Part shown: positions 28,012 through 46,850 of the stretch, one piece after another | Numbering within the stretch: the first letter of the stretch is position 1 | Layout: each line of letters begins with the position of its first letter | Assembly: GCA_018830105.1 (NCBI GenBank) | Contig: JAHJTC010000014.1 | Span: 1-64,000, forward strand | Length of the DNA stretch: 64,000 nucleotides | Direction of reading: 5' to 3' | Source of the DNA: Bacteroidota bacterium | GTDB taxonomy: Bacteria; Bacteroidota; Bacteroidia; Bacteroidales; F082 | Translations under genes and position numbers: made by a program | The notes under the pieces: generated by a model | Seen by the model: only the letters and a program-made list of their open reading frames with translations | What the model was told of the DNA's origin: nothing | The model's database searches: none

Positions 28012-28912
28012 ATTTCAATTTTTCTTTAGCATCCCACAATCCCCAATACGCCCCTACTTCGCCTTCTGCGCCAACTTTCCAGGCCTCATCAAAGGATGAA
28101 AAATAGAAAACAGGCACTTCTTCGTCCATTGACCACAATTGGGTGTTGATGAAGTATTTTAAAGCATTGATGTAGGAGGGGTGCGAATTTCCCAGACTTT
28201 CGCCTTTCGATGGCCAGCCGGTTTCGGTGATAATAACAGGCTTGCCCTTAGCGGCGGCAGTAGCCTGTGCAAACATGCTTTGCATATGCGACAAGGCGTA
28301 TTCATGGGAAGTGCCTTCCCAGAAAGGATAACAATTGGTCAAAATCACATCACAGGCGTCAGCGATTGCCGGGCGCTCCGTAAATTCGTAATAAGCATCA
28401 ACGTAGCCGACAGGAACATCAGGAATGGCTTTTTTAACCCGCTGTATTTGCGCAATCAATTCCTCTTCTGTAAGGTCATTTCTATAAAGCACTTCATTAC
28501 CCACTACGGCAATGTCAACCAGTCCTTCTTTTGCTAATTGGATCAAACCCTGTATTTCGGCCTCATTTTTATCCGCTTCCTTGCCCAGCCAGGCACCAGC
28601 CAGTGTTTTGATGCCCAATTCTTTGGCAACTCTTGGCACCAGTTCATTACCTTCGATACACGAAAACGAACGAATCCATTTGATGTAGGGTTTCAAAATA
28701 GTTAACCTTCTTCTGATTTGTGTTTCGGTGATGATGTCGCCTGGCTTTTGTTGTTCGGCATACATGCTGAAACAAAGGCCATGAATGCCACCTTGCAAAA
28801 TCTCAAGAAACAGCAGCTCCAAATCTTCTTTGGATTCAACATCAGGGTATTTATCCCTGAGCTGACTTGCCACCTCCTTATAGCTTAAAAATTTTTCCGA
28901 TCTGAATGACAT
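27992..28912 (-). CDS. GH17-like glucan hydrolase, second cytoplasmic copy
   Basis: The 306-residue protein is a second GH17 barrel, with acid/base Glu140 in IAVVGNEVLYRND and nucleophile Glu230 in VIITETGWPSKGES. The latter is closer to the plant/proteobacterial GH17 signature than its neighbour's. An N-terminal extension (SEKFLSYKEVASQLRDKYPD) precedes the barrel, and no signal peptide is visible. It is strongly diverged from the adjacent GH17, which points to a different chain-length preference or linkage rather than recent duplication. The 20-base overlap with the next gene implies co-translation. Confidence 0.83.
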   Translation of the reverse strand: MSFRSEKFLSYKEVASQLRDKYPDVESKEDLELLFLEILQGGIHGLCFSMYAEQQKPGDIITETQIRRRLTILKPYIKWIRSFSCIEGNELVPRVAKELGIKTLAGAWLGKEADKNEAEIQGLIQLAKEGLVDIAVVGNEVLYRNDLTEEELIAQIQRVKKAIPDVPVGYVDAYYEFTERPAIADACDVILTNCYPFWEGTSHEYALSHMQSMFAQATAAAKGKPVIITETGWPSKGESLGNSHPSYINALKYFINTQLWSMDEEVPVFYFSSFDEAWKVGAEGEVGAYWGLWDAKEKLKYGNKHL

Positions 28913-28965: not shown

Positions 28966-30396
28966 TTAAAGTTCGCCTCTGCGCTTAACGAGTTCATCTT
29001 TTATATTGCGGGCTTTTTCTTCGGTGAGGTCATATTTCCACATTACCACAATGGCCAGTCCGGCTGTAATTGCTGGGACAAAAATATCTGCCAGACGCAG
29101 GTTGGTGATGGTGTCTGCCGTCTGAATGGTTTCATTTTGGTCAAAACCAACCAGTTTGAGCACTAATCCGCCCAATACGAGGGCAAGACCTTGTCCGAGT
29201 TTTACCATCCACCAATAAATGGCACCAAAAGTGCCCTCTTTGCGTGGCATGCCATTGGCCAGCTCATCAAGGTCGCACACATCGGCTGTCATACTCATCA
29301 TGAGTGTAAAAAGGCCTCCAATACCAAATACCATCAAAGGCAGTGGCATGAACATCAACCAGGGATTATCCGGATTGAACCCCCACCACTTCAGGCCGTA
29401 TCCTACGATAGAAAGAAAAGTAGCAACGATAAAAGCATCGCGTTTGCCCCACTTATTTGCCATCCAGGTAATTACAGGAATAATCAGAAAGGCTGTTGCC
29501 ACTGCACTGATCGTCGAAAACCAGGCCGGCCAGGTGCCAGCTAATCCATAATCGCCTCTGAACATATAAAATACGATGATGAAATAACTGAAAGAGGCTA
29601 CCATTTGAAAACCATTGAACACCAAAAAAGTTGCCCCACACAGTCTGACAAAGGCAGCGTGTTTAAAAACCTGCGCCATACCTTTGAGCAGGCCTTTGAA
29701 GTTTTTGGCGATATTTTTAAAGGTCAGGTCATCCCTGTTAGAAAGGTTGGCCTGATCAATTTCCTTGCAAACGAGGGCGGGCATAATTCCCAGAAGCATA
29801 CAAACTCCACCAACAATAATCGATAACTGGCGCACGCCAATAGCCTGTGTCTCGAATAAATCAGGATTGGCAATAATCACCCAAAACCAAGGCACAATCA
29901 TCCAGGCTATCTGGCCGATCGTCTGCGAAAAACCCATCAGCCGCGTTCTTTCGTTGTAATCCGAGGTCATTTCGTAGCCCAATCCAATCAGTGGTGTCGA
30001 GAACATGGTATTTCCGATGAGGTAAACCATCGAAAGGATCAAAAAATACCAGAAATTATACATTTGAGTATTGTCCGGATTCAGTTGCCAGAGCACCGCA
30101 AAAAGAACGCCACTCAGGATGGCTCCTATGAAAATATAGGGCTTTCTTCGGCCATATTTTGATTTTGTGTTATCCGAGATATAACCCATAATGGGATCGG
30201 TGATGGCATCAAAAAAGCGTGGCAAGCCCCCTAAAAGCCCGGCCAGAAATGGATCCATGCCAAAAGCTGTGAGCAGAAAAAAGGCGAAAACACCCAGTGA
30301 GCCGGGTAAGAGGTTGTTGACAAGATGACCAGCTCCAAATGCTGCTTTCTCCAGCAAAGGCACTTTGTCTTTCGTTAATGTTCTTTTTTCAGACAT
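28966..30396 (-). CDS. GPH-family sugar symporter 1
   Basis: The 476-residue inner-membrane protein belongs to the glycoside-pentoside-hexuronide:cation symporters (MelB superfamily of MFS). It has about 12 transmembrane segments. Family motifs: AITDPIMGYISDNTKSKYGRRKPYIF split over loop 2-3 (DPxxGxxxDxT..GRRRP), GYEMTSDYNERTRLMGF, and TADVCDLDELANGMPRKEGTFGA in the late loop. It lies directly before the two cytoplasmic GH17 genes, so beta-1,3-oligoglucans or laminaribiose are plausible substrates; that is inference from context. Confidence 0.85.
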   Translation of the reverse strand: MSEKRTLTKDKVPLLEKAAFGAGHLVNNLLPGSLGVFAFFLLTAFGMDPFLAGLLGGLPRFFDAITDPIMGYISDNTKSKYGRRKPYIFIGAILSGVLFAVLWQLNPDNTQMYNFWYFLILSMVYLIGNTMFSTPLIGLGYEMTSDYNERTRLMGFSQTIGQIAWMIVPWFWVIIANPDLFETQAIGVRQLSIIVGGVCMLLGIMPALVCKEIDQANLSNRDDLTFKNIAKNFKGLLKGMAQVFKHAAFVRLCGATFLVFNGFQMVASFSYFIIVFYMFRGDYGLAGTWPAWFSTISAVATAFLIIPVITWMANKWGKRDAFIVATFLSIVGYGLKWWGFNPDNPWLMFMPLPLMVFGIGGLFTLMMSMTADVCDLDELANGMPRKEGTFGAIYWWMVKLGQGLALVLGGLVLKLVGFDQNETIQTADTITNLRLADIFVPAITAGLAIVVMWKYDLTEEKARNIKDELVKRRGEL

Positions 30397-30407: not shown

Positions 30408-31925
30408 TTATTGATTCGTTTTGGATAAATTGGCAGCTGGAATAATTACTGTTTGAATCGCTTTGGCACTTATGCTAAAAGCCACAGTCTTACTATCCAA
30501 AGTGAGTTGAATAGCCTTTTCTGTTTCTTCCGGATTGAAAATTACTACGGCAATATTCCCGTCAGGGTTTTGAGCAGCAGTAGCCATAATACTTTCATCT
30601 TTCAGCTCAAATCCAATGCGGACGGCTCCGGGACGGATAAACCTGCTGAAATGTGCCAGGGTATGATAAAGTGGTGTGAGATAAACTTCATCCTTATCCG
30701 GATCAACAATTACGGGCGCCACACACCAGTTGTTAGCCCAGTTGGGGCCACCTTGCCTGTCGAGTACCATGTTCCAGTCGACCCAACCATCCACCTGATT
30801 ATTCAAACAACCGATGATATCGCGTGCATAGCGAAACACGGGTACATATTTGGGATGCAGATGCTTTTGATCTTCCGGCGCCCAATCCCAACCCCAATCT
30901 GTAGCTTCCTTCGACCAGTACCAGGCATCATCCTGCCAATGTGGAACTTCTGCATCCACGCAGGCCTCCGTATTAATCAAATGCTTTCCGGGCGCTTTAT
31001 TATGGGCATATTGCAGTGACTCAGGAAAGTAATCATAGGTGCTTGCATACCAGTGCACGGCAGTGCCATCATAAAACTGTGCTGCCTCGGGATCTCCATA
31101 CATCACATCCACCCAATGTTTGAGCTCTTCGCCGCGGTTTTGGTCAAAACCCAACAGCATTACTGCATGACCATCATCACGCAGGCGCGGGCCGAGATGG
31201 TTTTTTACAAATTCGTTCATCTCTTCGGGCGTATAATGCATGCTCTCCCAGTTACTATCATTGCCAAGCGGCTCATTCTCAACTGTAAAGCCCCAGATAT
31301 CAATTCCTTCAGCTTTGTAAGCATCCACATATTTTGAGAAAAACAAAGCCCAGGAGTCGTAATATTCGGGCAAGAGTTTGCCCCCGCGCCAGTCTTTGTT
31401 GTCTTTCATCCAAATGGGTGCTGTCCAGGGAGATGCGATAATCTTAAACCCATCTTTGGAAATAGCCATGGCCTCTTTGATCATCGGGATAATATCATCG
31501 CGATCTTCGTCAATCGAAAAATGCTCGAGTTCGAGGTCTCCTTCAACTGGGGCGTAGGAGTAATTTCCAAGCGAAAAATCGCTCGAGTTCATGTGCGTGC
31601 GTGTGAGGGAATAACGGGCGCCCGTTTCACCAAAATACGCTTCAAGCACTTTTGCCCGGTTTTCATTGCTAAGCTGATTGAGCAGGTATGCCGAGGCTTC
31701 GGTAAATGAGCCGCCAAAACCGGTAATGTTTTGAAACTTTTCTGCCGGTTTCAGATTTAGGGCAATTTTGTCACCGGAGACTTTGGAAATCTCTTTTTTT
31801 GTCAGCTTGTTGCCACTTGCTGAGGTTTCAATAACCTCCACTTGAAGTGTGTTTTCTTCAGAACATGCAGTTGAAATCAACATGGCCATTACAATTAGTA
31901 ATTTGAATACTTTATTTATCATCAT
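30408..31925 (-). CDS. GH30 lipoprotein glycosidase
   Basis: The 505-residue protein has a lipobox (MLISTAC, Cys21). Residues 45-430 form the GH30 barrel: FQNITGFGGSFTEASAYLL, LTRTHMNSSDFSLGNY, IIASPWTAPIWMK, acid/base Glu218 in FTVENEPLGND, HWYASTYDY, nucleophile Glu320 in LINTEACVD. Residues 430-500 form the C-terminal beta-sandwich typical of GH30 (RPGAVRIGFELKD, NIAVVIFNPE). The family includes beta-1,6-glucanases and beta-glucosidases. In laminarin loci GH30 removes beta-1,6 branches, the likely job here. Anchored in the periplasm or at the surface. Confidence 0.88.
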   Translation of the reverse strand: MMINKVFKLLIVMAMLISTACSEENTLQVEVIETSASGNKLTKKEISKVSGDKIALNLKPAEKFQNITGFGGSFTEASAYLLNQLSNENRAKVLEAYFGETGARYSLTRTHMNSSDFSLGNYSYAPVEGDLELEHFSIDEDRDDIIPMIKEAMAISKDGFKIIASPWTAPIWMKDNKDWRGGKLLPEYYDSWALFFSKYVDAYKAEGIDIWGFTVENEPLGNDSNWESMHYTPEEMNEFVKNHLGPRLRDDGHAVMLLGFDQNRGEELKHWVDVMYGDPEAAQFYDGTAVHWYASTYDYFPESLQYAHNKAPGKHLINTEACVDAEVPHWQDDAWYWSKEATDWGWDWAPEDQKHLHPKYVPVFRYARDIIGCLNNQVDGWVDWNMVLDRQGGPNWANNWCVAPVIVDPDKDEVYLTPLYHTLAHFSRFIRPGAVRIGFELKDESIMATAAQNPDGNIAVVIFNPEETEKAIQLTLDSKTVAFSISAKAIQTVIIPAANLSKTNQ

Positions 31926-31936: not shown

Positions 31937-33235
31937 TTATTGGTTTTTTATTGATTCAGACAAAATAAGCGAAGGCGGTACATGAACATTTTGCATCAGT
32001 TTAAGCTTGTCGCCTCCAAAACTTTTAACAATCGGTTTCCCATCGCGGCTAAGCCCTTCAAATACGCCCTTGTCCACCAGATCCCAGATGCCAAACTTTG
32101 CTTCCGCATTGAGGTTGATCAAACCAAAATGATTTTCGGAACCCATGGGGTTGCCGGCATCTTTCCATTTTTCGTCAAAGGCTTCAAAGTAAAAACAAGT
32201 GATTCCGGCTTCATTCGTCCATTCGCGCATGAGATTGTAGTAAAGTCCGGCCTTGTATTCGTCCACGGCGCGGCTGCCTTCGATGCCATATTGACCATCG
32301 GAAAGACTAGCCCAGCCCGTTTCGCCGATATGCACAGGTTTTTCTGCACCAATGCTTTGCATATAATCCACCACACTTTGATATTGTGCTTTGGCATAGT
32401 CTCTTGAACGAACCATCGCCTTCCTAATTTGCGCTTTCTCCGGCAAATCCTGTTCCGCTTCCGGAACAAACCAGAAATCCGGATTGTAGTGGGTGTCGTG
32501 CATCGGATAGGTATGCATTGATATAAAATCCACGGCATGAATCAGCTTATGGAGGTCTTCCACATGGTAGGAACTGTCTCCTCCGCCCCAGCTGGCAAAA
32601 TTATCGGAGCTGGTGATCCAGAGCGTTGCAGGTAATGCGCCGTCCAGTTTAAGTTCCTGTAAATAATCTACCCATGTCAGGATGATGGCGGGTTCTACGT
32701 AATAATTCCATGCCCAATGCACCATAGCTTCGTTACCGACTGCAATAATTTTCACGATATCGGGATATTTTTGGGTCAATTCAACCGCGCGTGCTATTTC
32801 GGTTGCATTGGCTTCGCTTTCCTTATTCCGGATTCGGTTTGGCAATTCGGTCCATGCATTTTTGCAGTCGATCCAGGCGCCCAGCATGACATACATTTCA
32901 AAATCAGGCGTTTCTTTCTTAAGTTGGCTGATGGCTTCCAACAAATTCGCAGCTTCGTCGTAATGCACATTATAGGTGCGCAACAATTTGATGCCCATGG
33001 CTTCCAGTATGCGTAAATCCTCTTTAAGCTGCCCGATCGTTGGCTGAACGTCGCGGCTGTTTTCGCGGTAGCCGCCATAGCTTATGGCTTGATAAGCAGG
33101 GTTTCCTAAGATTTCTGCTGCTGTTCTGTCTTTATTTATTGACCCATCGCTGCAGGAAGAAATAAGCAATACGAGCAAGAAAAGCACGAACGATAGGCTT
33201 ACTTTGTGAAAAATATGGTGTTTCTTGCGCTTCAT
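31937..33235 (-). CDS. GH17 lipoprotein
   Basis: The 432-residue protein has a lipobox (LLISSC, Cys28), so it is a periplasmic or surface lipoprotein. The GH17 barrel spans about 45-400, with acid/base Glu169 in IIAVGNEAMVHW, nucleophile Glu305 in VHIGETGWASLSD, VDFISMHTYPMHDTHY, and CFYFEAFDEKWKDAG. It has an insertion around residues 240-300 (WFVPEAEQDLPEKAQIRK) that the other GH17 copies lack. It is expected to cleave beta-1,3-glucan outside the cytoplasm. It starts 3 bases downstream of the second symporter gene. Confidence 0.86.
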   Translation of the reverse strand: MKRKKHHIFHKVSLSFVLFLLVLLISSCSDGSINKDRTAAEILGNPAYQAISYGGYRENSRDVQPTIGQLKEDLRILEAMGIKLLRTYNVHYDEAANLLEAISQLKKETPDFEMYVMLGAWIDCKNAWTELPNRIRNKESEANATEIARAVELTQKYPDIVKIIAVGNEAMVHWAWNYYVEPAIILTWVDYLQELKLDGALPATLWITSSDNFASWGGGDSSYHVEDLHKLIHAVDFISMHTYPMHDTHYNPDFWFVPEAEQDLPEKAQIRKAMVRSRDYAKAQYQSVVDYMQSIGAEKPVHIGETGWASLSDGQYGIEGSRAVDEYKAGLYYNLMREWTNEAGITCFYFEAFDEKWKDAGNPMGSENHFGLINLNAEAKFGIWDLVDKGVFEGLSRDGKPIVKSFGGDKLKLMQNVHVPPSLILSESIKNQ

Positions 33236-33238
33236 GAT

Positions 33239-34615
33239 CTATTTGTTTTCTGTTGACGTTATGGAATCGTTTGCCCTACGATTCTCAAGATCAGTTTCCA
33301 TTTGCAGACAGGTTTTTTGGTCGATGGCATAATAGAACAACAAAATGGCACACGACATATACAAAATACCCGGAATGACAGAAATCATCAGTTTGATGCC
33401 ATTGATTGAAGTGTCTGATTGTATTTCGTTGGGCACAAAATGAAAGAGTGCCAGCAACCATCCTGCAAGTGCTCCGCCGATTCCCCATCCGGCCTTTTGG
33501 GCAAAGGTGGCAGCAGAAAAAACCAATCCGGTAGCCCTGCGGCCAAATTTCCATTCGCTGTAATCTGCTGTATCGGCAAGCATGGTCCAAAGTAAGGGCA
33601 CAGCCGGCGCATAGGTGAATTTTGCTAGGATATTCAGGCCATGCAACAGAAAAACATCATCTTTTCCGGGCAGGTAAATCAGAATAAAAAACAGACCCGA
33701 AAGCAAGGAACTTCCCATATAAACATTTCGCTTGCCAAATTTTTTCGCCAGGGGTTTTGACAATGGTATGCCGGCAATTAATGCTACCGTTCCGATCACA
33801 TTAAAAAGCTGCACACTTTGCTCGTCGCCTGTAAAATATTTGAAATAATATGCGATTGACAGGTTCTGCAACGCAAACATGATAAAGGAAACGATTCCAA
33901 CAAAAAAGAGGATAACCCAGGGCTTGTTACTGAACAGGTTTTTGAAGTCGGCCCGGAGATCTTGTCTCTGCGCTGCAGGAGGCTTAACGCGTTCACGGGT
34001 TGTTTTAAAAGTGATGAGAAACAAGACCAAACTGATTATCGCAAAGAGTGTTACGGTGTATTGATAGCCTTTGGCCGTATCGTCGCCACCAAAAAATCCG
34101 GCAAGGTAGAGGGCAGTTCCCGTTACGATAAATTGGCCGGCAAATGCAAAAATAAAACGGTACGAATTGAGTCCTGCACGTTCATAAGAATTAGCTGTCA
34201 TAACAGCACCCAGCGAAGAATAGGGCAGGTTGATGGCCGTAAAAACAGTCATCAAAAGGAAATAGGTGACTCCGGCATAAATCACTTTGCCGGTTTCGCT
34301 GAAGTCAGGAGTTGTGAAAGTTAGCACAGCCAAAACGCTGTAGGGCAGCGCCATCCAAAGCAGATATGGTCGAAACTTACCCCAGCGCGTATTGGTGCGG
34401 TCGGCTATCACACCCATCAAAGGATCACTTACCATATCCCAAACACGTGCAATCAACATGATGGTACCCGCCGCTGCCGCACTAATACCAAAGGTATCGG
34501 TGTAAAATATCAAAATCCAGAATCCTACCATGTCCCACACAAAGTGCGAAGCGGTATCGCCCAGGCCATACCCAATTTTTTCTTTGATGGAGAGCTTGCC
34601 GGTTGCTTTACTCAT
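33239..34615 (-). CDS. GPH-family sugar symporter 2
   Basis: I choose the ATG at 34615 (458 residues), which overlaps the upstream stop as ATGAGTAA; an in-frame ATG at 34642 would overlap by 35 bases. It is a MelB-superfamily cation:sugar symporter with about 12 membrane segments. Motifs: KIGYGLGDTASHFVWDM, RVWDMVSDPLMGVIADRTNTRWGKFRPY in parts, ANSYERAGLNSYRF, and MLADTADYSEWKFGRRATGLVFS. Of XynP/YicJ type, it is clearly different from symporter 1. The two may take up different glucan fragments. Confidence 0.85.
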   Translation of the reverse strand: MSKATGKLSIKEKIGYGLGDTASHFVWDMVGFWILIFYTDTFGISAAAAGTIMLIARVWDMVSDPLMGVIADRTNTRWGKFRPYLLWMALPYSVLAVLTFTTPDFSETGKVIYAGVTYFLLMTVFTAINLPYSSLGAVMTANSYERAGLNSYRFIFAFAGQFIVTGTALYLAGFFGGDDTAKGYQYTVTLFAIISLVLFLITFKTTRERVKPPAAQRQDLRADFKNLFSNKPWVILFFVGIVSFIMFALQNLSIAYYFKYFTGDEQSVQLFNVIGTVALIAGIPLSKPLAKKFGKRNVYMGSSLLSGLFFILIYLPGKDDVFLLHGLNILAKFTYAPAVPLLWTMLADTADYSEWKFGRRATGLVFSAATFAQKAGWGIGGALAGWLLALFHFVPNEIQSDTSINGIKLMISVIPGILYMSCAILLFYYAIDQKTCLQMETDLENRRANDSITSTENK

Positions 34616-35714
34616 TTGAGTTTGTATTCTTGGGTTTTTCAATCAAACTTTCCAAAAGGCTTACTACTTGTTTGGGTGTTCTGTCCACTTTAAAAACTCC
34701 CCAGTGCTTTTCGGCACCCAGTGGGTCAGCAGGATTGCCTTTCCAGTCTTCGTCAAAGGCTTCAAAAATGAAGGTTGTTATATTGTTTCGGTTTGCCCAT
34801 TGCAACAATGCTTCCGTATAGGTTGTTTGTTTTGCTTCGCTTGCCCTTTCTCCAAACTCGGAAGCTGTGGTTGCCCAACCGGCTTCTGAAATCACAATGG
34901 GTGCTTCGGGCAGCGCCTGCATCACTTCCAGCACATTTTCGATGCTGTAAGCCATCGCTTCATCAATGTCTTTGTTTTCCCAAATAGGATACACATGAAT
35001 AGAAACGAAGTCAACAGCTTCAGCCAGTTCCTTGCCATGATCAGCCCACCATTTGTAATTATCAGCCACAGTAACAGGCTGTTCGATACTTTCCTGCACC
35101 CGTTTCACATAAGTGATGATAGTGTCAGTGTCAACCATGTGGTCGTTCCATTCCACAAGGGCTTCATTGCCAACATTCACTGCCACGATGATGTCTTTAT
35201 AAATGTTGGCAAGTTCAATGCCTTTAGCTATTTCAGCCGTATTTTTCACTTTATTTTCATCAAGCACCTGCTGAGGAATAGGCTCGGTGAGCCATTCGCA
35301 GGTTTCGTGCGCACTCAGTTCGGCCCTGAGCCAAATACCTTGCATCACTTTAATATCCAAACCATATTGCCGTATCACTTCCAGCACCATTTGGCTATTT
35401 TCTTCGCAATCATAAAGCCTGATCAACCTGAAAGGTGTTTTCTTAATGAGCAGTTGCAGGTCTTCATAAATTTCTTCATACGAGGGATTTACTGCTCCGG
35501 CTCCCCGGTCGGGGTGCTGGCCGGTCCTGAAACCGGAATAACATACTGCTGCTGAATATCCTTCAAGGAGCTGTTCGGCTGTTTGCAAGCTGCTTTCTTT
35601 TTTGTTTTCGGTATTTTGTTGCTCCATTTTCTGTGATTGATCGCAGGCAGATAAACCCAATAAAGTGGCTACCATAAACAGCAAGATGAATTTAAGTTTG
35701 TAGTCCGTTTTCAT
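34608..35714 (-). CDS. GH17 lipoprotein, second extracytoplasmic copy
   Basis: The 368-residue protein has a lipobox (LGLSAC, Cys24). The GH17 barrel spans ~50-360, with acid/base Glu184 in VNVGNEALVEWND, nucleophile Glu277 in IVISEAGWATTAS, FVSIHVYPIWENKD, and FIFEAFDEDWKGNP. It is closest in text to the signal-less GH17 at 27070-28011 (shared YSGFR.GQ.P start, PSYEE, GNEA.VEW.DH, HWGV/LYKVDR end). The pair may therefore be an exported and a cytoplasmic version of one enzyme. It overlaps the phosphorylase gene by 4 bases and the symporter gene by 8. Confidence 0.86.
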   Translation of the reverse strand: MKTDYKLKFILLFMVATLLGLSACDQSQKMEQQNTENKKESSLQTAEQLLEGYSAAVCYSGFRTGQHPDRGAGAVNPSYEEIYEDLQLLIKKTPFRLIRLYDCEENSQMVLEVIRQYGLDIKVMQGIWLRAELSAHETCEWLTEPIPQQVLDENKVKNTAEIAKGIELANIYKDIIVAVNVGNEALVEWNDHMVDTDTIITYVKRVQESIEQPVTVADNYKWWADHGKELAEAVDFVSIHVYPIWENKDIDEAMAYSIENVLEVMQALPEAPIVISEAGWATTASEFGERASEAKQTTYTEALLQWANRNNITTFIFEAFDEDWKGNPADPLGAEKHWGVFKVDRTPKQVVSLLESLIEKPKNTNSNE

Positions 35715-38700
35715 TTTAACAGTTTGGTGTTGATATTGACTTCAATGCGATCAACAGTTCCTTTGCGGCCAAACACTGCCTCGCTCACAACGGAATCCGT
35801 CTGCAGATGATCAAAGCTTTTATGGTTGCCATCCATAAAGTAAACCGTCATATCGCTGCGATCCGCCAAAGTGTAAACAACAGGTGTTTGACAATAGGTA
35901 AATGCCAGTTGGCCGGCTTTTAAAGTGATTTGTTTTGTGTTACCCTCAACATTATGATAGCTGAACATTTTGGTTTCATTCAGGAAAGCCTGTTTGCGCA
36001 ACAAACGCGGGTTAAAGAACAGCAGGCCATCGCGGGCAAAAAGTCCCATCTCGCCATGATGAACGAGGATATCCTCTTTTACCTGGCCTGTCATCCCCGG
36101 TTGCTGTGCACCGCGATGGGAGGGCGTGTGTGAATAGGGATCGGTGGGGAAAGCACCATAAAGTTCGGGAGATTTGTGCACCCCGATTCCGGCATCAATT
36201 TCGTAATAATGGGCGAGCAATTCACCTGCAACAACTTCGTCTGTTTGCTCATTGACGGCCTTCAGACAACACTCCTGAACAGCTAGCTGCAATTTTGAAA
36301 CCATGTGCCAGTAAATAGAGCCCAATCCTTCAAAAGCATAAAAAGTGCCTGACCGGCCGGTAAATGACTTATGATTGAATACTTGCTCGAAAATATCAAG
36401 CAAGCGTTTTTCTTCCTGCTCAATGAGTGTGGCATATTTTCCGGGCAAGCGATCGATTGCAGTTTTCAGATCACCGGCATTTCGGAAATTGCCGTTAAAA
36501 TGATAGCCACCTGCTACGTCTTCCTCGATAAGCGTACGATTGCCATCTGAAAGCAGTTGTTTTAACAGTTTCGATGAGGCAACAGCCTCCTTTGGAATGT
36601 TATTTTTTTGCAAAAATCCGGGGAGTTCCTTGTTGGGATAAAGAATGTAGGAATATTGATCGGGTCGGAACAGGGAGCTTGCTTTGAGCGCATTCAGCAC
36701 TTCCAATGCTTCCTTGCTATTTAAATAGCCACTGCTTAAAACGGCTACCTGGCCTTCGAGCATTTCGCTGAGGCGATGAACTTCTGCCTTATTTTCGTTG
36801 ATAGTGAGTAGGTTATAAGCATGATAAAGCTTGTCCGGCCTTTGGTTAGCCTGAATGGAATGTGCGATAAAGGCCAAACTAATGGAAGTAAAACTTTTGA
36901 GACCATCGCGCGAAATGCTGCGTTTTTTACCCCAAAATCCATTCTCATAAATTTGATGCCTGTATGCTGATGCAGCTTCTCCAAAACTGTCGAGCATGCT
37001 TTTGCGATCTGCATCATTAATTTTTCCTTTTAGCAGGTGCTTGTTTTCAAGCATATTATCGCGCAGACTGTGATAGAATTCAGTGAGCTCGGCCGAGACT
37101 TTGAATTGTTCTTCTTTTGTTTTTTCAAGTAACTGATCGAAGAACTTCAGGAAACGATACAAATAATAGAGCGTGACCATTGATACGCCATTCCCTACCA
37201 ATGCATTGTTGGCATCGTTCCATTCGGGACGCTGTGTATTCATCCAAATACCGGCTTCAGGCACAAAATTCGATAGTTTGGCCAAGACGGTCACCAGTAT
37301 TTTTTCGATGAAATTTACATGGTAAATATCTTTGTCACCTATCGATAGCAAGGTACCGTCTGCACCCATATTTTCGCGCATTTTACGAATCTGCGTATCC
37401 CATTCTTCGCTGAAAGTGATGGTATCTTTCGGGTTTTTAAGTATCTCTTCGTAAGGTTTGATGATGTAAGGAACAGCAGCATAAACAAAGCATTCTTGTT
37501 CAAACAATTCGTTCAAACTGCCCGGGTAATAACTTTCGGCGATTTCGAGAAACTTTTGCAGGTAGATAATCTGGTGATCTCCCCAGTATCCGATGTACGA
37601 CCAGGGATTATCCGGTTCAATAGTTTCCCAGTCAAAACCATCTTTGGTAACGCGATAGGGATTGTATCCATCGAAAGTTGAGGCATTGAGGAATTTAAAA
37701 ATCATTCCCTTGATAAATTCCGGGTAGGCATGAGCCAGGGCTTCCCAGTTTTGGAAAAGATCGCGCCAATTTCCTTCGTAATCCAGGATTTTACTTCCAT
37801 CGATTTCACTTTGGGTGTTGATGGAGAAATAGTTCCAGGGGCGGCTTGGATCGCCATGGCGCCGGCTGAACCTCAACGGCAGGTATTCTATTGCAAGGCG
37901 CACTAGATCAACATCATCATTATTTATTAAAACTTCCTTGAGCTTGCTCAGCGCAAAATTATCGGTCAACTGATTGATGAGGGTTTCATTACGCTTCGCT
38001 ACAGCATGGTTGGCCTGTGACAGATAAGCTTTAAAGTCTTTCTTGTCAATCTGGTAGTTCTTATCAAAAATTCCACCGCGCATGATATTGAACAATACAT
38101 TTGAAAAATAACGCGTATCATTCAGCTGGTCTGCAGTGCGTTGCAGGCCATCGGCAGCAGCAACCAATTTGATCAATTGTTCTGTGCCATCTGCTATATC
38201 ATCAAGTAACTCTTTTTCAAGTTGTTCGTTATTGAGGATTTCTTCGCGCAAACGAATGATGTCAGTTTGCGTTTGATTGACATTGGCGATTATTTTCCAG
38301 CTTTTTGTATCCCCCGCATCCAGTTTAAGATCGTCATGAACAAAATAAGCGCCTTTTTCGCCTTTGATATCGGTTTCGGGCCGGAGGGGCTGCAGGTTTC
38401 TGAAAGCTTCCAGCTGGAGCGAAGACAGCAAAAATCGGGGTTCTTTAAGCCCTAAAGACCAGGCGATATTGGCTTTGAGCGCTTCGCTGGGCTCAGCCCG
38501 GTCAACAATAATTGCGCTAAGCGCAAAAATGCCAATGCCGGCTTGCTGATCAATCTCATTGCGTTTGTAAGCATCCACAAGGTTGCTCGTTGAACGCTGC
38601 AAATCGCTCGGAACACCGTAAGGCATAATGTTTTGAATGCCATCAAGTATTTCAATCTCCGCAGGTTTGTCGCTCTTGTTAATCAGACTTGCATTGCGGA

Positions 38701-39169
38701 TGAATCCAAACTTTTTTGAATTGTTCCATTGATAGTGAAAAGTAAGCTTCAGGCTATGGTTCACCTCTTCAAAAATAATTTTATTGCCGTACACACTTTT
38801 GTAGAGGTTGCGGCTGATCGCATACTGATTGGTATAGCGATTCGAAAAAGGCTCCCAAATCAACTGTTTGTCATCAGCTTTTATGCTGAAGATACTTTTA
38901 CTTCCGGTTAAGTCAGCCGATTCAATAATTTTATCGTCTGTGTAATAAGGAAACAAAGCATATTCAGGATTTTTGCGTCCGGCACTGATACCGCCGTTAC
39001 TCGCAACAAACATCCAGTGGTTGGCATCGCTCACAATGCTCATAAAAAATGGCCGTAACTGATTATGGTTCGGTATTTTAAAATATTTATCATTTCCGAA
39101 TTCAATCACTTCCATTGAAATTTTATTAGTGGTTTGATTCATTGTGTCTCCTGAATTTGCTTTGTTCAT
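35711..39169 (-). CDS. GH94/GH149-type beta-glucan phosphorylase
   Basis: The 1152-residue protein is cytoplasmic, with no signal peptide. It shows the architecture of inverting glycoside phosphorylases: an N-terminal beta-sandwich (WMFVASNGGISAGRKNPEYALFPYYTDDKI in parts, NRYTNQYAISRNLYK), a helical (alpha/alpha)6 barrel over about 500-1000, and a late sandwich. QRPEWNDANNALVGNGVSM resembles the DWND motif of GH94 and makes Asp652 the likely general acid. Length and context (GH16, four GH17, GH30) fit GH149 beta-1,3-oligoglucan phosphorylases, which release glucose 1-phosphate from imported chains. GH94 proper or GH161 are alternatives I cannot exclude without alignment. Confidence 0.72.
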   Translation of the reverse strand: MNKANSGDTMNQTTNKISMEVIEFGNDKYFKIPNHNQLRPFFMSIVSDANHWMFVASNGGISAGRKNPEYALFPYYTDDKIIESADLTGSKSIFSIKADDKQLIWEPFSNRYTNQYAISRNLYKSVYGNKIIFEEVNHSLKLTFHYQWNNSKKFGFIRNASLINKSDKPAEIEILDGIQNIMPYGVPSDLQRSTSNLVDAYKRNEIDQQAGIGIFALSAIIVDRAEPSEALKANIAWSLGLKEPRFLLSSLQLEAFRNLQPLRPETDIKGEKGAYFVHDDLKLDAGDTKSWKIIANVNQTQTDIIRLREEILNNEQLEKELLDDIADGTEQLIKLVAAADGLQRTADQLNDTRYFSNVLFNIMRGGIFDKNYQIDKKDFKAYLSQANHAVAKRNETLINQLTDNFALSKLKEVLINNDDVDLVRLAIEYLPLRFSRRHGDPSRPWNYFSINTQSEIDGSKILDYEGNWRDLFQNWEALAHAYPEFIKGMIFKFLNASTFDGYNPYRVTKDGFDWETIEPDNPWSYIGYWGDHQIIYLQKFLEIAESYYPGSLNELFEQECFVYAAVPYIIKPYEEILKNPKDTITFSEEWDTQIRKMRENMGADGTLLSIGDKDIYHVNFIEKILVTVLAKLSNFVPEAGIWMNTQRPEWNDANNALVGNGVSMVTLYYLYRFLKFFDQLLEKTKEEQFKVSAELTEFYHSLRDNMLENKHLLKGKINDADRKSMLDSFGEAASAYRHQIYENGFWGKKRSISRDGLKSFTSISLAFIAHSIQANQRPDKLYHAYNLLTINENKAEVHRLSEMLEGQVAVLSSGYLNSKEALEVLNALKASSLFRPDQYSYILYPNKELPGFLQKNNIPKEAVASSKLLKQLLSDGNRTLIEEDVAGGYHFNGNFRNAGDLKTAIDRLPGKYATLIEQEEKRLLDIFEQVFNHKSFTGRSGTFYAFEGLGSIYWHMVSKLQLAVQECCLKAVNEQTDEVVAGELLAHYYEIDAGIGVHKSPELYGAFPTDPYSHTPSHRGAQQPGMTGQVKEDILVHHGEMGLFARDGLLFFNPRLLRKQAFLNETKMFSYHNVEGNTKQITLKAGQLAFTYCQTPVVYTLADRSDMTVYFMDGNHKSFDHLQTDSVVSEAVFGRKGTVDRIEVNINTKLLK

Positions 39170-39217: not shown

Positions 39218-40048
39218 TTAATTCGTCTCGCGATAAACACGCACATAATCGACAATCATCTGCTGAGGGAAAGGTGTTTCCGGCGTAGGGAAACCCACAT
39301 AATTGCCCCCGACAGCAACATTTAACAGCATGAAGAATGATGCATCGTAAACCCATTCTCCAGACACATCCTCACGTTTCACGCGATGATAGAGGAAGTC
39401 GTCTACAAAAAAGTCAATTTTATCCGTATCCCATTCAATGGCAAAAATGTGGTAATCGTTGTCGAAGCGATCATTGGGCAAGCCATATTGTTTCGTAACC
39501 GGATTTCCACCGGAATAGCCAGGTCCGTGCAGGGTGCCATTGATGATATCGGGCTCCTGTCCTCGAAGTTCCATGATATCAATTTCGCCACATTGCGGCC
39601 AGCCCAATGTTTCGATGTTATTGCCCAGCATCCAGAAGGCAGGCCAGATTCCTGGCCCGTAAGGTGTGATCAGTCGGGCTTCGAAGCGGCCATATTGCTG
39701 CGAAAACTTGCCCTGGGTTTTTATCCTTGCCGAAGTGAAGCTATTATCACTGCGCAGTGCGGTAATTAACAGGTTCCCCTTGCCGTCCATCGACACGTTT
39801 TGAGGGTCTTTAGTATAGCTCTGCAATTCTGCATTGCCCCAGCCACCATCGCCTATTCCAAGATCAAAATTCCATTTGGTTGCATCCGGAAGCTCGCCTT
39901 CCTGGCCATTAAATTCGTCACTCCAAACCAACTCCCAGTTGCGTTCGTCGAGTTTTTGAAAATCATCGGTCTTGCAGCCGGAAAGTTGCAATAGAACCAG
40001 CACTGCGGCAACAAGGCTTAAATGCATTTTTGTATTTTTTGCTTTCAT
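39218..40048 (-). CDS. GH16 laminarinase lipoprotein
   Basis: The 276-residue protein has a lipobox (LLQLSGC, Cys25). A single GH16 jelly-roll domain (residues 38-276) follows: LVWSDEFNG, WGNAELQSYT, ARIKTQGKFSQQYGRFEARL, GIWPAFWMLG, and the catalytic CGEIDIMELRG with nucleophile Glu155, Asp157 and acid/base Glu160. Then HIFAIEWDTDKIDFFVDD and FPQQMIVDYVRVY. This is the GH16_3 endo-beta-1,3-glucanase (laminarinase) form. As a surface or periplasmic lipoprotein it would make the first cuts in laminarin-like glucan. Confidence 0.92.
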   Translation of the reverse strand: MKAKNTKMHLSLVAAVLVLLQLSGCKTDDFQKLDERNWELVWSDEFNGQEGELPDATKWNFDLGIGDGGWGNAELQSYTKDPQNVSMDGKGNLLITALRSDNSFTSARIKTQGKFSQQYGRFEARLITPYGPGIWPAFWMLGNNIETLGWPQCGEIDIMELRGQEPDIINGTLHGPGYSGGNPVTKQYGLPNDRFDNDYHIFAIEWDTDKIDFFVDDFLYHRVKREDVSGEWVYDASFFMLLNVAVGGNYVGFPTPETPFPQQMIVDYVRVYRETN

Positions 40049-40059: not shown

Positions 40060-41925
40060 TTATTTACGGAAATAAATATTATCAAGGTAAATATCACCAT
40101 TACCTTCAAATTTCAATTGAATGACATCGCCCATATCAACAGGGGCAAATTCCGATAAAGGAATATCGATCGACGACCATCCTGTTGTTGGCACGGTGAG
40201 TGTGTAGGGTGTTTCTATCGGCCCCGGGCTGATTAAAAACACCATTACAGAAGTGGAGTTAGCGCTCCAGAAATCCAGGTGCAGATGCGTCATAGCTGAT
40301 AAATTCTGACTGCTGCCCAGCTCGATACCCTGATAGTTCAATCCGGCATATTTGAGCGTATTGTTTCCTTCAATTTGTATTTCGGAGACTACTGTTGCCT
40401 GACCCCAGGCAGGATTTAGATTAGTGCCTGCAATAACGGTATAGGAATCACTGAAAACAGCGCTTACATCCGATGCATTCACTGTTGGCACCGGGGCAGC
40501 TGTTTCGGGTTCGGATGGAGGCGGTGGAGGTGTTCCATCATTATAGAAGAAGATATTGTCTGCATAGAAACTTGACATATTGCCATTCTCATTCACAAAA
40601 ATAAGTTGCATCAGCTTTGATCGGTCGTTGAGCCCGCTAAAATCAGCAAAAGCAATATCCAGGCTGATCCATTGTTGCGCCTGTTCCATAGGAATAGTTC
40701 TGCTGTACAAAGCCGAGCCTTCAGTACCTTCGTTTACCAGCTCAAATTGCAGTTGTGCATCGCCGGGAAGTGCATTGGGGAGATAGATATCCAAATGTAT
40801 GTGCGACATTTGGCTTGCATCGATGGTTGGTGAACTGAATTCAATTCCTACAAAATTGAAATCAGTATAATGCAAAATGTGATCCCCATTTACTTCAAAA
40901 TCAGCAGATAATGTTGTTTGATAGGGTTCCCAGTAGCCATTGTAGTAGTTTACAGGAACATTGTCGTAGGCATCACTAAATAGTGAAATAACATCAGCAG
41001 GATCTTTATCAGGAATAGGAGCAAGCACAAAATCACCAATCGATTCAATGGTAAGTTTGCCCTCGGCAGCTACACCACTCACAGTGGCAGTGATCTCGGC
41101 CTCGCCGGGTCCGCCCACTACAGTAACCACTCCCTCATCGCTAACCGTGGCGATATTTACATCACTCGATTGAAAGCTGTAGTAGGAGGTCGCTAGCATT
41201 ATTTCCTGGTTCACACCTGTTGGGAGGTTATAGTATGCCCTCAGGTCGCTGATATTTTTTGTAACACCAATAAAAGAGATATCAGTTTGGCTTTCTCCAT
41301 TGAGAATGGTAAACTGAGGATGGGCAATCGTGCCTAAGTTTTCAAATTTTACTTCATCGATCCAAAAAGTATAGCCTTTCTCGTTTTCCGGTCCTTCGGA
41401 ATAAAAAAACATGCCTCTTTCAGCAGTGAGGCGTGATGGATCGGGAACGGGAATGATGTATTTCTTCCAGTTGGTATTCACGGCCAAACCTTCTACAGTT
41501 ACCTGAAATCTGGATTCACCCATATCATTACCAAAACCAATTACATCGATATTGGCCGCCTGGCTTGCTTTAGCCCAAAAGGTGAGTGCATTATAGCCAG
41601 ATAAATCTCTGGGAGTGTCAGTATAATAAGCCCCACCGGCATAAGCCCCTCGGGGATCGCCTGCATCGGGCACTTCAAACCTCATGGAAGCTGCTGTACC
41701 ATCGAAAGTTACTTCCTGATCTACATCAAAGGCCGTGGGCACAGCCCCGCCAAAAGAAGCGTAGTTGAGGCCGGCACTAAAGCCGTCAATAAAAATATCC
41801 GGATTTGCCGGGTAGCTCGCCGGCGAGAGGTCGTCCAAATTACGTTCGCAACCTACAACTAGCAACGTAAGCAGTATGAGGGCGAAATATTTTGTAAGCT
41901 TTTTATTTATTGTTTTCATTTTCAA
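40060..41925 (-). CDS. Multi-module glycan-binding lipoprotein
   Basis: The 621-residue protein has a lipobox (LLVVGC, Cys26). Modules: a jelly roll ~40-200 (FIDGFSAGLNYASFGGAV, GYNALTFWAKAS, FWIDEVKFENLG), a BIG2-like Ig domain ~205-300 (VTKNISDLRAYYNLP, VSDEGVVTVVGGPGEAEITATV), then two homologous modules ~310-465 and ~480-621. Each of the last two begins DVISLFSDAY/DVSAVFSDSY and ends YADNIFFYND/YLDNIYFRK. No catalytic motif is visible. It is probably the surface glycan-binding protein of the locus, standing where a SusD-like protein would be expected. Only 6 bases separate it from the preceding gene. Confidence 0.8.
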   Translation of the reverse strand: MKMKTINKKLTKYFALILLTLLVVGCERNLDDLSPASYPANPDIFIDGFSAGLNYASFGGAVPTAFDVDQEVTFDGTAASMRFEVPDAGDPRGAYAGGAYYTDTPRDLSGYNALTFWAKASQAANIDVIGFGNDMGESRFQVTVEGLAVNTNWKKYIIPVPDPSRLTAERGMFFYSEGPENEKGYTFWIDEVKFENLGTIAHPQFTILNGESQTDISFIGVTKNISDLRAYYNLPTGVNQEIMLATSYYSFQSSDVNIATVSDEGVVTVVGGPGEAEITATVSGVAAEGKLTIESIGDFVLAPIPDKDPADVISLFSDAYDNVPVNYYNGYWEPYQTTLSADFEVNGDHILHYTDFNFVGIEFSSPTIDASQMSHIHLDIYLPNALPGDAQLQFELVNEGTEGSALYSRTIPMEQAQQWISLDIAFADFSGLNDRSKLMQLIFVNENGNMSSFYADNIFFYNDGTPPPPPSEPETAAPVPTVNASDVSAVFSDSYTVIAGTNLNPAWGQATVVSEIQIEGNNTLKYAGLNYQGIELGSSQNLSAMTHLHLDFWSANSTSVMVFLISPGPIETPYTLTVPTTGWSSIDIPLSEFAPVDMGDVIQLKFEGNGDIYLDNIYFRK

Positions 41926-41931: not shown

Positions 41932-44900
41932 TTAATTGCCGATATTGATTTGAATGTATGTCCTGAATTCCCACTCGTTGCCGTTGTCAAAACCGATTGC
42001 TGTTGGATCGGGCATCAAATCTCCGCCGGGTCCAACGACATAAATGGGCGCGTAGCGTGGCGAATACTGATCCAGCGTACGATAAGTACCTCTTAGACCA
42101 ATGCGTGTTGCAGGTAAATCAATCCACAAAGGCTTGCCCAGACTTGTTGATATATCGGCCATCAGCTGCAGGGGATAGGTAAGGTTAAAGTCGCGGTGAT
42201 AATCGTAAGTACCCCAATCGTTTACACGTACAAAGCTGGTAAGTTTGGCTTTTTTCCAAATCATTTGCAAATCCATTCCCATACGCGTGATGAGGCGGGC
42301 ATCGCTTCCGTTAGCTTGCGCATCACCGGCATACAGGCTGGCAATAAACCCGAAATATTTTGATGTTTTGGAGACAATGCGTGCGTGTACTTCCCATAAA
42401 TCCTGAGCTGGCGGCGCTCCCGGAAAAGCAAATGTGGAGCGTCCATCAGGAAGGATACCGATAGCAGCATCCTGTGTAGTTGGCAGATGGCGAAACACCA
42501 ATCCTGCACTAATAGCAAATTCGGCATCTTCGGCTTCGTTGCTGTCCCAATCATACATCCAGGTGCCTGGCGTTGGGTCGTAGGTAAGTAAAATTTCAGC
42601 TGCGACTTGTTCGCGGTTCGAGCGCACAACGAAAGGGTCTTCAAGTATGTTTCGTGGTCGTGCCGGGGCGGCAACAGTGCCAGGAATAGGCCCCTCGATT
42701 GGTTGTTGCCACAAGAAATTTGGAGCAATTTGAAGGTCACCAATCAAATAGGTAGCACCCGTCAGGAAATTGTATTGATTGCCGCTTCCACTGTCTTTCA
42801 GCCTCCAGCCAGTAAAGGTCTTGGTATAATCAGCCCCTCCCTGAGCCACAAGACCCATTGCTGCTGATTGGGCATACCAGTTAAATTTTCCACCGGTATA
42901 GGTGAGTTTGATTTTTCCTCCGAAATTATCTTCCGATCGAATTTCATCCTGATACACCGTATAATTTCCTTCTTCGCCGCGCAAAACCTGAAAGGCTCTG
43001 CCTTCTAAGGGTTGTCCAGCCCAGATACCACCCAGATCGACATCAATCTTGCCAAAACTTCTGTTTACATGCAAAGTAACGCGGCGTGTTTTGGGCTGAG
43101 GAATAGCAAAAGAACTTTCTGTTCCCTCCAATTGCTCGATATCTTCATGGTAAATAACCGTAGTGTTGATTTTACCGAGCGATCTGCTGTATTTTAATAA
43201 AAAGGCCGGGTTGGCGCCCCACCAAAGCTGCGGCCCGAAAGCTAATTTGAGGCCTTCGAGCTCCTTTTTCCCTTCCATCTCGAAACCAAATGGCGCAATA
43301 CCATTGTAGATATCTATGTTTGGACCATAATTGGCCTCAGGATACAGGCCAAAAAAGTCGCCTTCGTAGCCCCAATGGTAATGACCGGTGCGGTAAAAAC
43401 CAGTCATATTAAAGTATTCATGCTCCCATTGATAGCTGGCCCGATAAACCTGAATACGATTGTTGGATTCAATTTTTATTTCTTCGTTCCCGCTTTGTAC
43501 AAATATAGGCCGACCTCTGTTTTCATAAAAAATCTCATCGATAGGGTTCAAAGCCACATTACCCAATACGTTGAACTCAACATTGGCCCTGAAATTAGAG
43601 CTTGGGTTGGCCTCCACACCAATATAAAAGGATTCCATATGGTCGAACCCCAGCTGATCAGGATAGTTGTTACTGCCTTTTACCGGTTTGTCGGGGGTTG
43701 TAATCAGATCACCACCGGTATAAAATGTAGATATCTCAGTAGTAAATCTGCTCAGGCGGATTTTGCTGTTACGCTCTCCATCCAGTGCGGCTTCATCACC
43801 TCTGGCTTGTAGTACTGCCTCGGCAAGTAAGAGGTCATCAAAGTGCTGTTGTATGGCCGTGAGATTCACCCCTTTATTATAGGGATTTAGTTGGTGGACC
43901 TCCTTCAATGCATAGTAAGAAGCACGCGGATACAATTGATAATAGCCCATCTCATCGGTTGGTCCTTTGGCACAAATACCAAACCATTCCTCGTTCATAT
44001 TGTTAACGCCCGGGGTATAATCAAATGCATAACCGCCATTAGACCATGAAGCGTGGCTGTCGTGTACATCCAGGTTTTTCGTCTGGCCATATTTCCACCA
44101 GCCATCACTGAATTGAAAAGTAAATCCACCGATTGAATTTCCAACTTTACCCATTCCGGCTGCATTTTCGTAGATTTCCTTCCAATTGGCAACATTGTAC
44201 AAGGCCTGCGACTTTTGATCTTCCTGATTAGTCTTAACATTGAAAGCGTCTGAACCAAATTCTGTCAACAAAACAGGCTTACCAAATTCATTTTTTGCAC
44301 GTTCGAATAAATCAGTAAATGAAATGCCGCGATAAACATTGATGCCAAGTATATCTACATCCTGACACTCTTCGGCAATGATATCCATAAACAACAGGTC
44401 GCCATTGCAGATAGAAACCGGGTGGTTAGGATCGATATTTTTCATGGCGACAGCGGCCTGATTAAATAACTTGTACATATGCCTGGCACGCTGCGTTGAG
44501 GCACGATCTTCGATAGGGATATCTTCTGTTTCAGCACCGTCCCAAAACAGGCCGTAGTTGTTTTCGTTACCCAAAAGGTATAACAAAAGCCCTGGTGTTC
44601 CTTTGTAGATAGTTGCCAGTTCAGTTACTTCCTGCATTAATAACTCTACTGTAAGCGGATCATCATACTCCGTATTGGCTACCCAGGCGCCGTCGAGGGT
44701 GAGGCCATACCGTCCAAAGGAATGATTGAGCATGGTGTAGATTCCGTAGTTCTCGTAAATATAGGTGATCCATTTGGGCTGGATACCTGTGTACACCCTG
44801 ATAGCGTTGACGCCCATATTTTTGAGTAATGACATCTCCGAATCCAGTGCATTTTTAATAAAGTCGTCGGGTTGGCTCCATAAACTGTAGGCGTAATTTG

Positions 44901-45066
44901 TTCCAATGGGGAAATAATCCCAGTTCATTCCGTTTACCATTAATGCCTTGTCATTGACAATAAGGCGGTGACCTGTTTCATCTTTGGTAACATATACCTG
45001 GTGGGATTGTGCCAGCACCATGGCTGACAGGAAGATGAAACTAAGTAATAAGGTGATTTTTCTCAT
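41932..45066 (-). CDS. Clan GH-A glycosidase fused to an outer-membrane beta-barrel
   Basis: The 1044-residue protein has a signal peptide (1-19, LSAMVLAQ). Residues ~25-410 are a clan GH-A (alpha/beta)8 barrel: LMVNGMNWDYFPIG, NMGVNAIRVYTGIQPKW, acid/base Glu168 in YLLGNENNYGLFW, ILGINVYRG, nucleophile Glu269 in VLLTEFGSDAF, GFTFQFSDGWWKYG, NEEWFGI. It most resembles GH2 catalytic domains and GH72 glucanosyltransferases. Residues ~430-1044 are alternating amphipathic strands (YRASYQWEHEYFNMTGFY, FLLKYSRSLGKINTTVIYHE, FRTYIQINIGN) ending at the C-terminus, as in an outer-membrane beta-barrel. First gene of the operon. Hydrolase or transglycosylase cannot be decided. Confidence 0.75.
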   Translation of the reverse strand: MRKITLLLSFIFLSAMVLAQSHQVYVTKDETGHRLIVNDKALMVNGMNWDYFPIGTNYAYSLWSQPDDFIKNALDSEMSLLKNMGVNAIRVYTGIQPKWITYIYENYGIYTMLNHSFGRYGLTLDGAWVANTEYDDPLTVELLMQEVTELATIYKGTPGLLLYLLGNENNYGLFWDGAETEDIPIEDRASTQRARHMYKLFNQAAVAMKNIDPNHPVSICNGDLLFMDIIAEECQDVDILGINVYRGISFTDLFERAKNEFGKPVLLTEFGSDAFNVKTNQEDQKSQALYNVANWKEIYENAAGMGKVGNSIGGFTFQFSDGWWKYGQTKNLDVHDSHASWSNGGYAFDYTPGVNNMNEEWFGICAKGPTDEMGYYQLYPRASYYALKEVHQLNPYNKGVNLTAIQQHFDDLLLAEAVLQARGDEAALDGERNSKIRLSRFTTEISTFYTGGDLITTPDKPVKGSNNYPDQLGFDHMESFYIGVEANPSSNFRANVEFNVLGNVALNPIDEIFYENRGRPIFVQSGNEEIKIESNNRIQVYRASYQWEHEYFNMTGFYRTGHYHWGYEGDFFGLYPEANYGPNIDIYNGIAPFGFEMEGKKELEGLKLAFGPQLWWGANPAFLLKYSRSLGKINTTVIYHEDIEQLEGTESSFAIPQPKTRRVTLHVNRSFGKIDVDLGGIWAGQPLEGRAFQVLRGEEGNYTVYQDEIRSEDNFGGKIKLTYTGGKFNWYAQSAAMGLVAQGGADYTKTFTGWRLKDSGSGNQYNFLTGATYLIGDLQIAPNFLWQQPIEGPIPGTVAAPARPRNILEDPFVVRSNREQVAAEILLTYDPTPGTWMYDWDSNEAEDAEFAISAGLVFRHLPTTQDAAIGILPDGRSTFAFPGAPPAQDLWEVHARIVSKTSKYFGFIASLYAGDAQANGSDARLITRMGMDLQMIWKKAKLTSFVRVNDWGTYDYHRDFNLTYPLQLMADISTSLGKPLWIDLPATRIGLRGTYRTLDQYSPRYAPIYVVGPGGDLMPDPTAIGFDNGNEWEFRTYIQINIGN

Positions 45067-46388: not shown

Positions 46389-46436
46389 TACCTCCTAAAG
46401 TCTATTCGATTTTCTAAAATACCTTGTTTTAAATCC

Positions 46437-46757: not shown

Positions 46758-46780
46758 GATTATAATTCATACGACCATGT

Positions 46781-46850
46781 AGGCACACATTACAAATGTG
46801 CGCCAGCGTTGGGCGAACTGTTAGGCACACATTATAAATGTGCGCCAGGG
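46781..46850. repeat. Two tandem REP-A-like palindromes
   Basis: AGGCACACATTACAAATGTGCGCCAG (46781-46806) and AGGCACACATTATAAATGTG..GCCAG (46823-46848) are two near-identical inverted-repeat units in direct orientation, about 42 bases apart. The stem is CACAT/ATGTG instead of CGGAT/ATCCG, so they are a sister class of the REP-A element. They lie at the 3' end of the membrane-protein gene at 46854-47360. Confidence 0.65.

Follow-up and report, generated by a model that had tools for sequence, protein, structure and literature searches.

We describe here a fusion protein of a Bacteroidota bacterium in which a clan GH-A glycosidase and a predicted 24-strand outer-membrane beta-barrel are joined in one polypeptide. 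It is encoded in a stretch of 64,000 nucleotides (contig JAHJTC010000014.1, positions 1 to 64,000; this whole stretch is called the window below) by the first gene of a glucan operon that lacks SusC. It seems reasonably probable that the protein is an enzyme-bearing pore for the uptake of glucan and likely replaces SusC/SusD. Carriers would then likely be able to import beta-glucans, for example algal laminarin, in the absence of SusC/SusD genes. An initial annotation of this DNA had placed enzyme and outer-membrane barrel in one polypeptide at the head of such an operon. Prediction and comparison bear this out, and the observation of a glycosidase-barrel fusion is confirmed, as are the coordinates of the gene and its signal peptide. 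The gene lies on the minus strand, like all features of the operon. The reading frame is unbroken from 45066 down to 41932 (41932..45066) and encodes 1044 amino acids (aa). The signal peptide, judged by eye, comprises residues 1-20 and ends with VLAQ (45007..45066; MRKITLLLSFIFLSAMVLAQ). It contains no lipobox cysteine, and a home-made lipobox test was positive in 0/81 family members. The glycosidase domain follows (residues 22-400, 43867..45003, delimited by sequence matches, fold and alignment), then linker helices at which barrel-less homologues stop (residues 402-432, 43771..43863, from the model and these homologues), and finally the predicted barrel (residues 436-1043, 41938..43761, from models, fold matches and periodicity). 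An AlphaFold2 model of the whole protein (73 aligned homologues, mean predicted local distance difference test score (pLDDT) 77.8, predicted template modelling score (pTM) 0.67) shows a triosephosphate isomerase (TIM) barrel to about residue 400, helices at 402-410 and 414-432 and nearly only strands thereafter. The same wall strands appear when only residues 400-1044 are modelled (59 sequences, pLDDT 74.4, pTM 0.70).

The enzymatic part is recognisable, although remote from described families. In the N-terminal part Pfam matches clan GH-A models weakly, best the TIM barrel of glycoside hydrolase (GH) family GH2 type (residues 70-277, 28.2 bits), and it gives no match beyond residue 298. No GH2 domain other than this TIM barrel is matched, and the enzyme domain begins directly after the signal peptide. 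GH158 is the best, still weak, sequence match among solved structures (19.7 bits), and the fold is nearest to the endo-beta-1,3-glucanase families GH158 and GH157, with identities over aligned residues of 19-20% for GH158 and 16% for GH157 (BuGH158, LaGH157). Unlike in these two families, no Ig-like domain is seen in the model between TIM barrel and linker, and a membrane barrel comes after. Glu168 and Glu269, already named as catalytic residues in the initial annotation, are invariant together with N167 in 73/73 aligned homologues. In the model E168 stands right behind strand 160-165 and E269 inside strand 265-271, so that the protein has the TIM barrel, the Asn-Glu after strand 4 and the Glu after strand 7 of clan GH-A. 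BuGH158 shows this arrangement of catalytic residues (PMC7157763). By analogy to its E137 and E220, we propose E168 (codon 44563..44565) as acid/base and E269 (codon 44260..44262) as nucleophile.

The barrel part, about 610 residues (436-1043), is predicted in both models as strands that form an outer-membrane beta-barrel. A closed barrel of 14-20 strands had been expected, and structure prediction of residues 400-1044 indeed gives a membrane barrel and not a soluble beta-sandwich or beta-helix; by our reading, however, the wall has 24 strands. Likewise, the roughly 600 residues of amphipathic strands described before are present, but the C-terminus (YIQINIGN) lacks a terminal aromatic residue. 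Averaged over the family, the two-residue periodicity of the barrel strands is 2.66 vs 1.43 +/- 0.22, with 0/2000 within-strand shuffles as high, and the strands of the GH domain score 1.52 in the same test. Short turns lie on one side and long, nearly invariant loops on the opposite side, and identity is 80% at the inferred lumen face compared to 68% at the lipid face. When the barrel alone was searched with Foldseek, 50/50 best structure matches were outer-membrane barrels; via a second fold search this held for all but one of the 50 best, the exception being a mitochondrial VDAC. No barrel family was excluded merely for being unlisted in these searches. Signal peptide, amphipathic strands, turn/loop asymmetry and fold match, all by prediction, place the protein among the outer-membrane beta-barrels. 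At the level of sequence, no PDB entry matches the barrel at E 10, and in 59 barrel sequences Pfam at E 0.01 finds only DUF6882 (2/59, best E 5e-4). The pilus ushers PapC and FimD are the closest whole-length match, and these 24-strand barrels align end to end with the predicted one. They differ in that they secrete pilins, carry a plug domain within a loop and have no detected sequence similarity to the fusion barrel. Among the turns of the short side, taken as periplasmic, that at residues 830-849 is the longest, with 20 aa, and the most conserved, with 82% identity relative to the mode; the enzyme domain may dock there.

A large barrel preceded by an N-terminal domain is also the layout of TonB-dependent transporters, and BtuB and OprC ranked first among the Foldseek matches of the barrel. 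One could therefore think of a disguised transporter in which the enzyme replaces the plug and is pulled by TonB. We give this only a slim chance, because no Plug or TonB family is among the matches, whether of the fusion protein (at E 0.1) or of 59 barrel sequences (at E 0.01), and by our count there are 24 rather than 22 strands. By sequence the fusion protein thus lacks the plug and the TonB-dependent barrel domain of such a transporter or of SusC. Residues 24-27 (VYVT) faintly resemble a TonB box; they were rejected as such a box since the model folds them into an ordered hairpin within the GH domain and the Thr varies among homologues.

In the operon the fusion gene is followed by a gene, called gene 2 here (40060..41925), for a predicted surface-exposed lipoprotein with CBM11-like and Big_2-like regions (Pfam, below cut-off), which we propose as partner of the barrel. 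The gene-2 lipoprotein is tied to the barrel. We compared 82 related loci, of which 80 are the best relatives from a scan of one genome per species and two come from plasmid records. Gene 2 directly follows the fusion in 79/80 loci that have a next gene, and a GH16 gene is the second in 70/72. A Bacteroides finegoldii copy of gene 2 was confirmed at 37% identity. With residues 20-300 as query, gene 2 was found in 35 of 395 genomes drawn from the phylum, namely in 33/33 with a fused gene, in 0/10 with a barrel-less or broken form and in two others, counts that are uncorrected for genome kinship. The two others are a match of 134 bits and 38% identity to a longer protein without lipobox by eye (G126) and a match of 28 bits (G393). 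Gene 2 adjoins the fused gene in 32/33 fetched neighbourhoods, lying about 10 kb off in the remaining one (G144), and adjoins the barrel-less gene in 0/11 loci. Small unassigned open reading frames (ORFs) were skipped in naming neighbours (below 130 aa in the 82 loci, below 150 aa in the neighbourhoods of the 395 genomes).

These barrel-less homologues are informative in themselves. A search with the GH domain only recovers proteins that end right at the linker, on contigs of up to about 1.56 Mb. Of 120 listed matches 88 are at most 450 aa long with a starting Met, a number that may include partial genes; ten of the 120 were read, and P0266 and P0310 continue into the barrel. A tree of 53 GH domains, of which 18 are barrel-less, 34 fused and one distant, shows the barrel-less ones scattered among the fused. 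Parsimony counts 11 changes, at least six of them forced by starred branches, compared to an average of 15.2 for shuffled labels (quick method); the tree gives no direction of change. In one genome (G119; locus L136, C314:2181-3641) similarity to the query extends to residue 493, inside the barrel, with two stop codons in the match, and because of this its barrel half looks like decay or loss. L132 (27% identity) was excluded from the barrel-less counts and L139, on a 3 kb contig, from the neighbour counts and the tree. A free-standing barrel-only family was considered and rejected. Residues 440-1000 gave 820 matches, with full-length members shut out by the length window (best 120: 512-974 aa); the five proteins read among those listed (P0148, P0156, P0158, P0204, P0208) start within the GH domain and are therefore taken for broken or partial genes.

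SusC/SusD is the textbook system of glycan uptake in Bacteroidota, and loci are detected and counted through that pair. The initial annotation described the locus as free of SusC, and indeed none of the four SusD hits and none of the 34 CarboxypepD_reg_2 hits of the own genome lie in the window, which thus holds no polysaccharide utilisation locus (PUL) in the strict sense of a locus with a SusC/SusD pair. Profiles built from the four SusC and SusD pairs of this genome match 2/82 related loci (L039, L061); 45 of the 82 are flanked by at least 9 kb on either side. To find a hidden SusC, Pfam was run on the unassigned ORFs of these loci that reach 600 aa, 46 of 47 in all (10 + 36, excluding a 1706-aa ORF of L002); no TonB or Plug family is among the matches listed (25 of 100 families for the 36 ORFs), and CarboxypepD_reg was matched by 3/36. 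Ahead of the barrel-less gene, SusC/SusD or SusD stands in 4/11 loci (L129, L138, L140, L141), and SusC/SusD occurs in 4/33 fused-locus stretches (L159, L163, L165, L168); the excess beside barrel-less genes is in the expected direction but not significant (p 0.09). Since the barrel has a lipoprotein of its own that accompanies it and SusC/SusD precedes some barrel-less genes, the role as a SusC substitute gains support, and barrel and lipoprotein are likely a substitute for SusC/SusD. The presence of SusC/SusD near the fused gene in the 2/82 and 4/33 loci, together with the SusD and CarboxypepD_reg_2 hits elsewhere in the own genome, would also suit a barrel that is an anchor only, a platform to which enzyme, gene-2 protein and GH16 dock while SusC/SusD encoded elsewhere transports. 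We regard this as unlikely, as a 24-strand barrel with a lumen face better conserved than its lipid face exceeds the needs of an anchor, and some barrel-less forms have a lipid anchor instead and then follow SusC/SusD in some loci.

The topology of the barrel would place the enzyme domain on the periplasmic side. The initial annotation imagined an outer-membrane pore with its own enzyme that feeds cut glucan through the barrel; the SusC-substitute role gains support, but the order does not, because with a periplasmic enzyme the chains would pass the barrel before cutting. Sidedness of the neighbouring lipoproteins can be estimated, as a negatively charged N-terminal signal directs Bacteroidota lipoproteins to the surface (PMC5080379). 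The mean number of Asp/Glu in the six residues after the lipobox Cys is 2.52 for gene 2 (lipobox in 66/80 by the home-made test, as for the following) and 2.24 for GH16 (51/69), compared to 0.67 for GH17 (33/42) and 0.91 for GH30 (22/39). From these counts, the gene-2 protein and GH16 are predicted to be exposed at the surface and GH17 and GH30 to face the periplasm. In 8/11 barrel-less genes a lipobox Cys is seen by eye, followed by 0-2 acidic residues (mean 0.88), and these low counts are similar to those of GH17 and GH30, in agreement with the periplasmic location suggested by the barrel topology. That all barrel-less enzymes are lipoproteins does not hold, given the 8/11 by eye and only 15/88 of the listed short homologues by regular expression. 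Classical autotransporters have the order signal peptide, passenger and C-terminal barrel, the latter of 12 or 16 strands. The same domain order and a helix ahead of strand 1 in the model could speak for a display device, in which the barrel sends the N-terminal enzyme to the surface for glucan degradation and another protein does the uptake. We consider this quite improbable: 24 strands are predicted, the barrel-less enzymes, some with a lipobox and few acidic residues after it, suggest a periplasmic function, the operon already has a surface GH16, and the tie between barrel and gene 2 would be left unexplained.

The operon comprises 13 co-directional genes with gaps of -35 to 82 bases. After gene 2 it encodes a GH16 lipoprotein (39218..40048, lipobox by eye), a predicted surface beta-glucanase; a GH149 beta-1,3-glucan phosphorylase without visible signal (35711..39169; 1755 bits, cut-off 1150); a GH17 lipoprotein (34608..35714); an inner-membrane sugar symporter of the glycoside-pentoside-hexuronide (GPH) family (33239..34642); a second, predicted periplasmic GH17 lipoprotein (31937..33235); a GH30 lipoprotein (30408..31925) whose nearest NCBIfam model, endo-1,6-beta-glucanase, is below its cut-off; a second MFS_2/GPH-like symporter (28966..30396, below the NCBIfam gph cut-off); a GH17 (27992..28912) and a GH17-like protein (27070..28011, below the Pfam cut-off), both without visible signal; a protein with a type IX secretion tail (Por_Secre_tail; 25685..27010); and a large putative regulator (22903..25602, 899 aa) without Pfam match at E 0.001, homologues of which lie directly upstream of the fusion gene in 33/82 related loci (19 on the same strand, 14 on the opposite). 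This set suggests that beta-1,3/1,6-glucan is the target of the operon and would be the substrate of the pore. The alginate exporter AlgE is among the fold matches of the barrel, but we attach hardly any probability to an export device for self-made glucan, trimmed by the enzyme as in exopolysaccharide secretion, because the nameable operon genes encode degradative enzymes, sugar importers and secreted or binding proteins, with no glucan synthase among them. In a separate related locus, a GH81 protein with a type IX secretion tail (L033:7036-9615) stands beside the fused locus, a further pointer to beta-1,3-glucan.

An uptake route through the fusion protein could run as follows. The surface GH16 lipoprotein would nick beta-1,3(1,6)-glucan, and the gene-2 lipoprotein would hold the chain above the barrel mouth, in a SusD-like role. 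The chain would enter the barrel between the nearly invariant long loops and be cut, while emerging, by the GH-A domain held by the linker at the periplasmic mouth. Cut products would be unable to slide back. As no plug or TonB part is seen in the protein, our proposal is that entry becomes one-way through cutting at the exit. Periplasmic GH17 and GH30 would then shorten and debranch the products, the GPH symporters import them, and cytosolic GH149 and GH17 complete the breakdown. One-way entry by exit cutting is the boldest and least supported step of this proposal. More tentatively, and with somewhat less than even confidence, we suggest a third polysaccharide route over the Bacteroidota outer membrane, in which a TonB-independent 24-strand pore, with an endo-glucanase fixed to its periplasmic mouth and a lipoprotein of its own as a lid on the surface, achieves one-way uptake by cutting, and in which this cassette has been swapped in evolution with SusC/SusD around the same enzyme. 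If true, it raises a new energetic question, hydrolysis at the exit in place of TonB, and the natural swaps make this question directly testable.

Compared to known systems, the fusion locus resembles SusC/SusD importers in its large outer-membrane barrel with an adjacent surface lipoprotein, both encoded in a glycan operon whose enzymes act at the surface and in the periplasm. It differs by the missing plug/TonB match, a gene 2 that is no SusD by profile, the 24 predicted strands and the covalent link of enzyme and barrel. Earlier work has noted GH149 clusters that lack susCD (PMC5827456), and "PUL-like loci (no susCD)" were expressed in spring (PMC10811738). Muricauda clusters contain a LuxR regulator, "GH2", GH16, GH149, GH17, GH30_1 and a major facilitator superfamily (MFS) transporter, with the GH2 taken for a beta-glycosidase (PMC13188888). 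Laminarin loci with a "GH0" beside GH149 are also described, the GH0 being in the top 10% of expression in one bloom genome (PMC10108472). The gene set of the SusC/D-less clusters and loci equals that of the fusion locus, and the excerpts available mention no barrel (PMC5827456; PMC10811738; PMC13188888). The published GH2, judging from gene order, and the GH0 may well be this fusion. If so, the fusion would explain how substrate enters in the known SusC/D-less laminarin clusters, and genome surveys would miss an importer class filed as "GH2" or "hypothetical". According to the initial annotation no system of this kind was described. No glycosidase-outer-membrane-barrel fusion was found in the open-licence literature searched, preprints not covered, but other fusions are in print. 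The MFS-GH17 protein of Formosa likewise unites a transporter and a laminarin enzyme in one polypeptide, in the same kind of locus, but its transporter is a helical MFS protein, by its kind of the inner membrane, and its enzyme is C-terminal (PMC6246565). The pore-sphingomyelinase SpmT (TC 1.B.79) also joins a pore domain, said to pass glucose and phosphocholine, to a hydrolase; it differs in being actinobacterial, in its reversed domain order, in its lipid substrate and in its listed number of 8, where other families show strand counts (PMC4827864). Thus, the SusC/D-less locus type is in print and the parts are of known kinds, while the literature searched yielded neither their combination nor the barrel family. 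The barrel-less locus L136 of G119 has an MFS ORF of 783 aa, long enough for an MFS-GH17 fusion as in Formosa.

The fusion is not peculiar to a single genome. At E 0.001 the full query matches 5875 of the 7998 proteins scored; those listed, 120 in number, have lengths of 1009-1079 aa and identities of 71-99% (one being the window's own protein). The scan of one genome per species gave at least 580 relatives among 589 stretches, and the match spans both domains in 80/80 best relatives retained, a selection that favours full length. Among the 395 genomes, 50 have a GH-domain match. A fused frame of more than 1000 aa occurs in 33; ten have a form that is barrel-less or broken (364-480 aa in nine frames, that of G332 at a contig end, and stops in G235), and seven carry only distant matches of 33% identity or less. 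An earlier draw of 296 genomes contained 45 with any match, distant ones counted. Named carriers include a B. finegoldii strain (60.5%) and Persicobacter (63.2%). One record labelled as a B. finegoldii plasmid (L002, NZ_OY725931.1) carries valS and rpsA and looks like a chromosomal piece. Upstream of the operon, fragments that we take to resemble RHS-repeat core proteins (48721-49038 and 49793-51355, within 46000-51500, minus strand) and a small, presumably transposase-like ORF (47597-48403, minus strand) are found in the window.

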